This document shows positions 50,405 to 52,536 of a DNA stretch of 64,000 bases, in pieces (the stretch's first letter is position 1; each line of letters opens with the position of its first letter). A program made the position numbers and the translations under genes. Origin of the DNA: Croceibacterium salegens (GTDB lineage Bacteria; Pseudomonadota; Alphaproteobacteria; Sphingomonadales; Sphingomonadaceae); assembly GCF_009827435.1 (NCBI RefSeq), contig NZ_WTYM01000033.1:186001-250000 (forward strand), in the 5' to 3' direction. A model generated the notes under the pieces. The model saw only the letters and a list, made by a program, of their open reading frames with translations. It did no database searches and was not told where the DNA came from.

Positions 50405-50944
50405 ATGACCGCGCTGCGCTTGCTGATCGCCTTGCCCATCGTCGCCCTCGCCGCCTGCGTGCCCTCTGCACCCGCGCCGACCCCGGCGCCGACTCCGGCC
50501 CCCGCGCCACCGCCTACCCAGGCACCGGAGGAGGTCGTCGCTCCAACGCCGAGCAACTGGATGGACGCCCCGCAAACCGCCGGCGACTGGAGCTACGTCG
50601 CCTACGCGTCGGGCAGTTCGGCCAGCTTCGGAGTGTCGGCGGACCAGCCGCGCTTCGCGATCGCCTGCGTAAAGGCGTCGCGCACCATCGCATTGATGCG
50701 CTTCGGCCGCGCCGCCGCTCCGGTACCGATGACCATCCGCACCGAATTCTCGAGCCGCACCTTCACCGCCGAACCGAAGGATGACGGCCAGCCAACGATC
50801 CGCACCGAACTCCCGGCGCGCGACTCGTTCCTCGATGCGATCGCCTTTTCGAAAGGACGCTTTTCAGTCGAGATGTACGGACTCGATACGCTTTACCTGC
50901 CTTCCTGGCCGGAAATCAGCCGAGTCCTGGACGACTGCAGGTAA
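50405..50944 (+). CDS. Pro/Ala-rich lipoprotein of unknown function
   Basis: The 179-residue product has a lipobox (LPIVALAAC, Cys18), followed by a Pro/Ala/Thr-rich linker of about 30 residues (APTPAPTPAPAPPPTQ). A globular domain follows with GDWSYVAYASGSSASFGVSADQPRFAIACV, LMRFGRAAAPVPMTIRTEFS and a C-terminal RFSVEMYGLDTLYLPSWPEISRVLDDC. Proteins with this composition are frequent in sphingomonads and are uncharacterised. Two Cys in the mature part (ACVKA and DDCR) may pair. The ATG at 50405 is supported by the signal peptide. Confidence 0.82.
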   Translation: MTALRLLIALPIVALAACVPSAPAPTPAPTPAPAPPPTQAPEEVVAPTPSNWMDAPQTAGDWSYVAYASGSSASFGVSADQPRFAIACVKASRTIALMRFGRAAAPVPMTIRTEFSSRTFTAEPKDDGQPTIRTELPARDSFLDAIAFSKGRFSVEMYGLDTLYLPSWPEISRVLDDCR

Positions 50945-50948
50945 GAAA

Positions 50949-50972
50949 AAGGCCCACCCCAAGGGGCAGGCC
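50949..50972 (-). terminator. Minus-strand intrinsic terminator without an annotated gene
   Basis: On the minus strand GGCCTGCCCC and GGGGTGGGCC form a 10-bp stem (two G-T pairs, TT loop; complement of 50951-50972), followed by TTTTTCTTAC. The plus strand has two mismatches and no T-run, so it acts on minus-strand transcripts only. No gene on the minus strand between 51000 and 51430 is evident. Confidence 0.65.
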
Positions 50973-51111
50973 GGAAGCGCAGGATTCTGACAGTGAAAAA
51001 CTGAAATGCAAGACTTGTGTTAGCGTTCAACAAGACTCAAATTACACCCAAGGCCGGCGGTACACGCAGGTCTTGGCCACCGGTGAAACGGTGACCTGGC
51101 TTTAAAGCGCG

Positions 51112-51125
51112 AAAGGAGGTGATCC
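51112..51125 (+). promoter_or_regulatory. Extreme Shine-Dalgarno: 14-nt complement of the 16S rRNA 3' end
   Basis: AAAGGAGGTGATCC is the exact reverse complement of the last 14 bases (GGATCACCTCCTTT) of bacterial 16S rRNA. Typical sites match 4-7 bases. GGAGG lies 7 bases before the ATG at 51127, the ideal distance. Confidence 0.8.
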
Positions 51126-51126
51126 G

Positions 51127-51183
51127 ATGTCTCATGGTTCAGCAGGGAGGTCGGAAACGACCCGCGCGGAGCACTATCGGTAA
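51127..51183 (+). CDS. 18-codon mini-ORF with a very strong ribosome-binding site
   Basis: Translates to MSHGSAGRSETTRAEHYR followed by TAA. It is hydrophilic and Arg-rich, with no Ile, Leu or Val, so it is not a classical branched-chain amino acid attenuator peptide even though ilvE lies downstream. The stop codon lies inside the inverted repeat CTATCGG/CCGATAG. Its Shine-Dalgarno sequence matches the 16S 3' end over 14 bases. It could be a real small protein, a ribosome-loading device for a regulatory RNA, or a structured RNA in which the coding potential is incidental. Confidence 0.5.
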   Translation: MSHGSAGRSETTRAEHYR

Positions 51184-51240
51184 CCTCTGAAAACCGCCGA
51201 TAGAGGCTTCGTGAGCGGTTTAATCGACCGCTGACCATGC

Positions 51241-51285
51241 GAAGGCCGGTTCCACCGACAGGCGGAGCCGGCCTTCTCATTTTTT
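51241..51285 (+). terminator. Strong rho-independent terminator before ilvE
   Basis: A 13-bp stem (51241-51253 with 51264-51276, one G-T pair) is followed by TCA and six T. It ends the plus-strand mini-ORF transcript about 150 bases before ilvE. It could serve as an attenuator if transcription normally continues into ilvE. Confidence 0.8.
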
Positions 51286-51432
51286 GCGGTTCTGCTCCGC
51301 CGCCCTTCAATTCGGGCACACTTCAGGCTAGTGCGGCGGCGAAAGGTTGCAACGCTTACCATTTATTTCATTTTTCTTGCTCATAATGAAATTATCGGTC
51401 AATCGTAGCACTGCCACATTAGGAAAGTTCCC

Positions 51433-52536
51433 ATGCACGCCACCGCCGGTCAGTCGCTCGACTTTGCCCGCATCCCTCACCCGTCGCCGGTCCCCGCGGC
51501 CGAGCGCAACACATTGATCGCCGCTCCCGGCTTCGGCACGGTGTTCACCGATCACATGGTGATGATCGAGTACGACGCGGATCGCGGCTGGCATTCGGCG
51601 ACTCTCGGCCCTCGGGGACCTCTCAGCCTCGATCCGGCTTGCGCGGTGCTGCACTACGCGCAGGAAATCTTCGAGGGCATGAAGGCCTACAAGCTGGCCG
51701 ACGGCACGATGGCGCTGTTCCGGCCCGAGCAGAACGCGCGGCGCTTCAACGACTCGGCCGACCGGCTCGCCATGCCGAACTTACCCGAGAAAGTCTTCGT
51801 CGAGGCGGTTCGCCGGCTGGTGCTGGCCGACAAGGACTGGTTCCCCATGGTCGAGGGAGGCTCAATCTACCTGCGTCCCTTCATGTTCGCGTCCGAGGCC
51901 TTTCTCGGCGTGCGTCCGGCGAAGCAGTACAAGTTCCTCGTCATCGCCAGCCCCTCGGGCAACTACTTCAAGTCGGGCGCCCCTGCGGTCTCGATCTGGG
52001 TCTCTGAGAACTACACCCGCGCCGCGCCGGGCGGCACCGGGGCGGCCAAGTGCGGCGGCAACTACGCCGCCAGCCTCGTCCCGCACGCCAATGCCGTCGC
52101 CAGGGGCTTCGACCAGGTCTGCTTCCTCGACGCCGCCGAGCACAAGTGGATCGAGGAACTGGGCGGGATGAACCTGTTCTTCGCCTTCGAGGACGGGACC
52201 CTGCTGACGCCCCAGCTGACCGGCACGATTTTGCCCGGCATCACCCGCGATTCGATCATCAAGCTCGCCCGCGAAGAAGGGCTGACGGTGAAGGAAGGCC
52301 GCTACAGCTTCGACCAGTGGCGCGCCGATGCGGAGAGCGGGCACCTGCTCGAAACCTTTGCCTGCGGCACCGCAGCGGTCGTCACCCCGGTCGGCAGGGT
52401 GGCCGGCGCAGCCGGCGAATTCACCATCGGCGGCGGCGGTCCCGGGCAGCTGACCGAGCGGATTCGCGAGAAGCTCGTCGGCATCCAGCGCGGGACGATC
52501 AAGGACCGGCACGGCTGGGTCCACAGGATCGACTGA
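51433..52536 (+). CDS. ilvE: Branched-chain amino acid aminotransferase
   Basis: A class-IV PLP aminotransferase for the last step of Leu, Ile and Val synthesis. The 367-residue product is of the longer type-II (eukaryote-like/IlvE2) form. It has FTDHMVMIEYDADRGWHSATLGPRGPLSLDPA, then LHYAQEIFEGMKAYKLADGTMALFRPEQNARRF, the PLP-Lys segment GTGAAKCGGNYAASLVPHANA, and WIEELGGMNLFF with the C-terminal EAFACGTAAVVTP-like motif. AGGA lies 8 bases upstream of the ATG. The preceding region holds the structured mini-ORF locus and a terminator. Its leader may be regulated by it. Confidence 0.96.
   Translation: MHATAGQSLDFARIPHPSPVPAAERNTLIAAPGFGTVFTDHMVMIEYDADRGWHSATLGPRGPLSLDPACAVLHYAQEIFEGMKAYKLADGTMALFRPEQNARRFNDSADRLAMPNLPEKVFVEAVRRLVLADKDWFPMVEGGSIYLRPFMFASEAFLGVRPAKQYKFLVIASPSGNYFKSGAPAVSIWVSENYTRAAPGGTGAAKCGGNYAASLVPHANAVARGFDQVCFLDAAEHKWIEELGGMNLFFAFEDGTLLTPQLTGTILPGITRDSIIKLAREEGLTVKEGRYSFDQWRADAESGHLLETFACGTAAVVTPVGRVAGAAGEFTIGGGGPGQLTERIREKLVGIQRGTIKDRHGWVHRID

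Follow-up and report, generated by a model that had tools for sequence, protein, structure and literature searches.

The window analysed here is a 64,000-nt stretch of the Croceibacterium salegens contig NZ_WTYM01000033.1 (positions 186,001 to 250,000 of the forward strand). Between a gene for a short protein ending in VLDDCR (50405-50944) and ilvE, which starts at 51433, this stretch carries a compact element with a promoter-like block, leader hairpins, an extended Shine-Dalgarno sequence (SD), a short open reading frame (ORF) and an intrinsic terminator (Table 1). A terminator-like hairpin on the minus strand (50951-50972) lies directly after the upstream gene. A homologue of that gene is found on the same strand, within 700 nt upstream, in 85 of the 123 loci that could be tested. 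If transcription begins just past the putative promoter-like block, the RNA would be about 240 nt long; the core of the family to which we assign it below spans ~170 nt.

Table 1. Coordinates of the features of the element in the window
Feature	Position	Strand	Basis
Promoter-like block: CAAGACTTG (51009-51017), GACTCA (51034-51039), AATT	51009-51043	+	Motif recurrence in relatives
Leader hairpins CCAAGGCCGG...GGTCTTGG; CACCGGTGAAACGGTG	51048-51093	+	Predicted folds
Extended SD GAAAGGAGGTGATCC	51111-51125	+	15 nt complementary to the 16S 3' end
Local start-occluding helix TCCGAT (51123-51128) / GTCGGA (51150-51155)	51123-51155	+	Fold, 6-bp match
18-codon ORF MSHGSAGRSETTRAEHYR, stop TAA	51127-51183	+	18 codons in 119/134 sphingomonad copies
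Lock, 5' arm: CATGGTTCAGC (51133-51143), GGTCGG (51149-51154)	51133-51154	+	Duplex -23.4 kcal/mol; arm coevolution
Alternative local hairpin GCGGTTTAATCGACCGC, masking part of the 3' arm	51215-51231	+	In best fold
Lock, 3' arm: CGACCGCTGACCATG	51225-51239	+	CTGA-N0-3-CATG motif in relatives
Intrinsic terminator: stem 51242-51253/51264-51275, tail CTCATTTTTT	51242-51285	+	Fold, family match

Being on the same strand, with ilvE beginning ~150 nt past the terminator, the element could be a leader or attenuator of ilvE. Among sphingomonad-type loci with at least 1500 nt of downstream sequence, ilvE follows on the same strand within 1000 nt in 56 of 112 (30 of 84 for loci in named genomes). The other 56 have no ilvE within that distance, and in one locus (L030) ilvE lies upstream and points away; in the window, a terminator intervenes and the ORF has no Ile, Leu or Val codons. 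We give this reading practically no credence, and the partial linkage agrees with the preliminary description, which had held ordinary ilv attenuation inapplicable. Since ilvE is found downstream in just these 56 loci, the element is, on its genomic context, a predicted stand-alone small-RNA gene. Judged from ORF listings alone rather than by homology, the surroundings of 11 loci look unlike between clades.

The promoter-like block recurs in relatives. Of 129 sphingomonad copies, 117 have the motif CAAGNCTTG in the 160 nt before them (shuffled sequences would give 0.18). Unique stretches upstream number 116, and in 75 of them GANTC follows exactly 16 nt past CTTG, with an A-rich stretch preceding. 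The background density of GANTC in upstream sequence is 0.0058 per position. GANTC, which in the window falls at 51034-51039, is the CcrM methylation motif, and its place in the block might link the RNA to GcrA/CcrM cell-cycle control. A sigma-70 scan returned no site at the block, nor on either strand, thereby missing the proposed promoter too. The copies of other clades have CTTG...TATA-like promoters near the SD (by eye, 34 copies), and leaders similar to that of the window were seen by eye in L003, L006 and L027 and were absent from the Sphingomonas loci inspected. At the other end, nine of the 12 terminator stem pairs have changed on both sides in 22 relatives; a simple terminator scan of the window omitted this hairpin. 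The stretch 50973-51290 folds far below its shuffles (z -7.0, 0/100). This fold and the hairpin with its CTCATTTTTT tail confirm that hairpins and a terminator follow the ORF, as initially described.

The SD contains AAAGGAGGTGATCC at 51112-51125, the perfect 14-nt match to the 16S 3' end that had been noticed at the outset, and the G at 51111 extends the match to 15 nt; one further G separates the SD from the ATG. The 16S 3' end used (CTGGATCACCTCCTTTCT) is that of the relative Sphingomonas paeninsulae, not of the window genome; a search of five genomes, two of them single-contig, gave no SSU rRNA (0/5), and it seems that rRNA is either missing from these or masked. The 3.64 Mb genome contains the exact 14-mer a single time, for ~0.03 expected by arithmetic. 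It was found in 118 of 149 family genomes, counted as 14-mer places and not as confirmed elements, with two or more places in 15 of them; the backwards 14-mer gave 0/149. When up to three mismatches were allowed, the window contained 7 matches vs 3.7 expected, which leaves the perfect site as the one notable match. The 16S complementarity of the SD is genuine and not due to chance. The calculated SD-16S duplex ranges from -29.5 kcal/mol in the window to -32.2 kcal/mol for the CCAG type, and such near-maximal complementarity recurs across the class.

At the gathering level, an Rfam scan of the window returned nothing. Under an E-value threshold, RF01867 (CC2171, a Caulobacter sRNA) surfaced with a match to 51103-51274 that covers the whole model (1-159 of 159, E 3.1e-11) and scores 55.6 bits, below the cut-off of 75. 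Intermediate scores were obtained for L200 (68.9 bits) and L137 (66.9 bits), and the consensus SD/start block, long-range helix and terminator of RF01867 are all present in the window alignment. Homology is near certain. Given a full-length match with a score under the cut-off, we have classed the element with the CC2171 family as a divergent branch from sphingomonads, and not among its curated members. It is thus not the undescribed element that the preliminary description proposed, and the 5' limit given there (50973) lies too far upstream of both the Rfam match and the promoter-like block. Landt's Caulobacter array study of 2008 is said to be the origin of CC2171. Our literature search on CC2171 and Caulobacter, limited to the library at hand, found no paper. 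In the Rfam 15 release description CC2171 is listed as having gained one covarying pair, and a Mesorhizobium huakuii relative is tabulated as a 215-nt RNA-seq product (PMC5596092); neither that description nor the PMC5596092 table rows state a function or an ORF for CC2171.

The family is widespread among Alphaproteobacteria. At E 0.01, RF01867 matched in 91 of 372 class genomes, with the weakest matches probably due to chance; 13 of 372 score above the cut-off. Thirty of the class matches were taken as loci and 40 more as further stretches, the mostly weak remainder being left out. Among 14 control genomes, matches were found in Caulobacter vibrioides and in Deinobacterium chartae, the latter probably by chance. 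The pattern AAAGGAGGTGATCCNRTGTCT, with at most one mismatch, was present in 47 of 299 Pseudomonadota genomes, all 47 within the 86 Alphaproteobacteria and none among the 213 others. An exact pattern gave at least 119 loci in named genomes; among the matches listed (80), most are from Sphingomonadales, with Azospirillum, Devosia and Phycosocius also represented. A BLASTN search with 50940-51300, a query that makes no assumption about the SD, found matches in 125 of 149 family genomes; in the more distant ones, what is left is a core of ~46 nt that runs from the SD to GGTCGG. The sphingomonad genome G091 carries, besides its standard copy, a second one of Caulobacter type (L200, AAAGGAGGTGATCGAATGTCTCATTGTC).

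Similar DNA was not found in the plasmids or phages searched. Two IMG/VR contigs carry the SD/start pattern (L265:3866-3889 and L266:9759-9782), with sub-cut-off RF01867 scores of 43.3 and 43.8 bits, and these copies may be prophage cargo or host DNA. Two other associations were considered and dropped. In L163 (1357-3024), the copy lies ~1.2 kb from an alphaproteobacterial tmRNA gene, but none of 18 other scanned loci has a tmRNA at gathering score, a weak tmRNA match in L097 being a tRNA. An overlap of L210 with Brucella BASRCII26 was treated as chance (30.1 bits vs a cut-off of 218).

We have then compared the ORFs. A regular expression for SD plus start codon retained 201 distinct instances from 253 loci; those retrieved by exact pattern (L032-L150) have their first 23 nt conserved by construction. 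Twelve of the 70 fetched RF01867 loci (L181-L250) lack the expression: three combine the full 14-mer with TTG as start codon, one (L241) looks false, and eight have just 11-13 of 14 SD matches (three of them with TTG), so that a perfect SD is not obligatory. An ATG, GTG or TTG stands at one fixed place in 69 of the 70, a count that includes duplicates and comes from a model that itself contains the SD/start block. Translation of the window confirmed the 18-codon frame free of Ile, Leu and Val that had been annotated beforehand. In 134 sphingomonad copies the ORF length ranges from 15 to 20 codons with a standard deviation of 0.6, against 20.7 in frame +1, 17.5 in frame +2 and 25.9 in shuffled sequences, and the stop codon varies, with TAA, TGA and TAG all in use. 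The 67 other copies have 22-26 codons in 44 cases and 56-59 in the eight Azospirillum-type ones (L051, L068, L073, L099, L101, L145, L153 and L156), where the ORF resembles a secreted peptide. In three Azospirillum plasmids, for which the gene table is incomplete, no gene is listed under this frame. These ORF counts are descriptive, as related sequences are not independent.

The element could be a small mRNA for a functional micropeptide, its strong SD just driving high expression and offsetting structure. The maintained length, start and stop would fit such a product, as would the invariant MSHG and nearly invariant MSHGS of 119 sphingomonad 18-codon ORFs, the first three residues of which are fixed by construction in the pattern-fetched loci; moreover, some annotated Sinorhizobium sRNAs are described as translated (PMC10117765). 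However, codon positions 1 and 2 are more variable than position 3: over codons 7-18, diversity is 0.449, 0.467 and 0.315 at positions 1, 2 and 3 in 88 unique ORFs, and 0.504, 0.509 and 0.346 in 23 non-redundant ones, although third-position conservation may stem from GC3 bias. Between clades, the peptide is by eye unrecognisable past the first codons, and the conserved nucleotides of the ORF fall on paired arms. We consider a functional micropeptide unlikely, and the peptide product suggested in the preliminary description is not supported, the length of the ORF and its pairing in the RNA being maintained as the peptide drifts. Comparison of relatives shows selection on the extended SD, on the start codon and length of the ORF, and on the way its first codons pair with the 3' end, and much less on the peptide. 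What matters is probably the act of translation. The constrained length also bears on an ordinary trans-acting or dual-function sRNA, in which a seed lies somewhere in the RNA and translation does no more than protect or clear it. The family is catalogued as sRNA and the element has its own promoter-like block and terminator, but a seed needs no constrained ORF length, and we regard this explanation as unlikely.

The first codons can pair with the 3' end of the RNA in a long-range helix, here called the lock, in which the stretch from the start codon to codon 10 meets the 26 nt before the terminator. The CTGA-N0-3-CATG motif of its 3' arm is present downstream in 133 of 134 sphingomonad copies vs 1 of 134 in one shuffle. 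From 192 copies with a terminator call, 80 distinct arms were obtained. Matched arms gave a mean of -21.6 kcal/mol vs -15.4 for permuted ones (sd 0.39; 0/10,000 permutations), and the difference persisted when the main sphingomonad arm type was removed (-21.0 vs -14.4 kcal/mol, 62 arms, 0/10,000). Control pairings gave z values of +1.8 (codons 11-20), +1.7 (SD), +1.2 (shifted partner), -1.3 (downstream) and -2.1 (reversed partner, 91/5000). In 22 chosen Caulobacter-type sequences, the lock core is paired in 86.9% of cells, with three of seven pairs changed on both sides, and its extension in just 68.7%. This supported the conclusion that the arms of the predicted lock coevolve in relatives. 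Lock duplexes remain strong in the four Azospirillum-type copies with distinct arms (-18.7 to -26.1 kcal/mol).

SD-sequestering hairpins together with an end-to-end interaction in one small mRNA, the latter computed here, recall type I toxin mRNAs folded like hok or AapA3, which are described as following the same logic, SD hairpins first and interaction of both ends afterwards (PMC6733600). In contrast to hok and aapA, the element has no conserved toxin peptide, its peptide being drifting and hydrophilic by eye, and the lock begins at codon 3 and covers the first codons, not the SD. As to an antisense antitoxin RNA, the sigma-70 scan, which overlooks the proposed promoter as well, gave no site on either strand. 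Its broad distribution (125/149 family genomes) and the retained upstream gene (85/123 testable loci) are likewise unlike patchy toxin genes, and we hold a type I toxin to be very improbable.

A second helix involves the SD and start codon. The window form, TCCGAT/GTCGGA, is too conserved among sphingomonads for a covariation test. In Caulobacter-type relatives, the SD/start strand GGTGATCCAG can pair with a CTGGATNRYC-like sequence around codons 12-16, and this ORF-internal strand resembles the 16S end CTGGATCACC. In 22 relatives, 89.5% of cells are paired and four of ten pairs have changed on both sides, and the arm test on all arms gave z -6.9 (84 arms), or -5.4 without the CATGG type (55 arms), both with 0/5000. 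Compensated examples are GATCCAG/CTGGATC, GATCCTG/CAGGATC and GATCCCG/CGGGATC. L208 (CCTG/CAGG) and L203 (CCCG/CGGG) compensate their spacer changes, L175 does not, and parts of the helix are broken in L151, L162, L175 and L200. Four helices taken jointly are 88.9% paired vs 83.5% in shuffles (0/500), although these shuffles include the terminator, the source of much of the signal. For this covariation alignment we chose the 22 sequences ourselves and wrote the structure string by hand from the alignment; an alignment that misaligned the 3' arm between sphingomonads and others was excluded from the counts. The evidence for this candidate SD/16S-mimic helix is thus covariation, and it is missing from the predicted best folds of L163, L165 and L179, which have the lock. 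The two helices together would be a pseudoknot, or else they would alternate.

The predicted folds, made for the single strand free of ribosome and proteins by a program that cannot represent pseudoknots, place the window RNA in a local structure (-92.5 kcal/mol) that beats the enforced lock (-84.3 kcal/mol) by 8 kcal/mol. Once the SD is forced to stay open, the lock takes over as the most stable fold (-81.3 kcal/mol). Freeing the SD costs 11.2 kcal/mol in the window and 4.3-6.8 kcal/mol in four relatives, compared with the -29.5 to -32.2 kcal/mol to be gained from the duplex with 16S. The local fold pairs the start codon and leaves SD bases 51112-51114, 51117-51118 and 51121-51122 open. Four SD bases (GG at 51115-51116 and GT at 51119-51120), besides both ends, are predicted to be paired, so that the SD foothold would be partly open at most. 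That the lock is predicted to form with the SD held open would suit an RNA that acts as a 30S decoy or sensor, binding free 30S subunits through a 15-17 bp duplex while its amount or decay reports subunit supply; the recurrence of near-maximal complementarity across the class points the same way. The ribosome-sensor role suggested in the preliminary description would fit as well. A decoy or sensor would leave ORF length and termination unexplained, as a pure sponge cannot account for a constrained ORF, and we judge it improbable.

The best explanation, to which we give a probability of only about 0.4, is a ribosome-gated RNA whose long-range helix would open through translation. The free RNA would be closed, its start region held by the local helix or by the lock beside the terminator, or, in Caulobacter-type relatives, by the ORF-internal strand resembling the 16S 3' end. 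The weakly paired, partly open, purine-rich 5' part of the SD would offer a foothold to the 16S 3' end in the 30S subunit, the 15-17 bp SD-16S duplex would pay for initiation beside a stable helix, and the 30S subunit would displace the internal pairing. Translation of the short, sequence-neutral ORF would then melt the lock and expose the 3' half. The open form would probably act in trans by base pairing, or be handed over to a nuclease; this output step is a guess. Our confidence in the gate is lowered by the absence of the SD/16S-mimic helix from the relatives' best folds and by the partly paired foothold in the window, and the strong SD may merely compensate for a structured start. In a more specific version, which we find rather doubtful, the 16S 3' end would itself be the ligand: by strand displacement against the internal 16S-like strand the RNA would read 30S availability, and translation of the length-fixed, sequence-free ORF would open the lock and turn on a trans-acting 3' half.

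Initiation on such an SD has a precedent in Staphylococcus aureus, where a longer-than-usual SD-aSD helix is described as fitting an initiation complex, as for the aur mRNA, while in E. coli bS21 would hinder the extended helix (PMC13009471). S. aureus has extended SDs in many mRNAs, whereas here there is usually one exact 14-mer per genome together with an internal competing strand. Dual-function sRNAs such as rnTrpL and Spot 42 likewise join an sRNA-sized transcript with a very short ORF, predicted in our case; unlike theirs, the peptide of the window element is not conserved. With CC2171 itself, the window element shares the extended SD, the NTG-TCT start context, the long-range helix and the terminator. 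It differs in the lock letters (CATGGTTCAGC/GCTGACCATG), in its 18-codon ORF (mostly 22-26 codons in the CC2171 type), in a longer leader and in promoter type.

With these comparisons, a widespread RNA family gains a testable anatomy, namely a near-maximal SD, an ORF under selection in length and not in sequence, and coevolving helices that share strands with the ribosome. The sphingomonad branch is missed by the RF01867 cut-off. If the gate is real, the family would be a natural example of a regulatory RNA switched by an rRNA strand, and genes of CC2171 type would merit annotation as translated RNAs.
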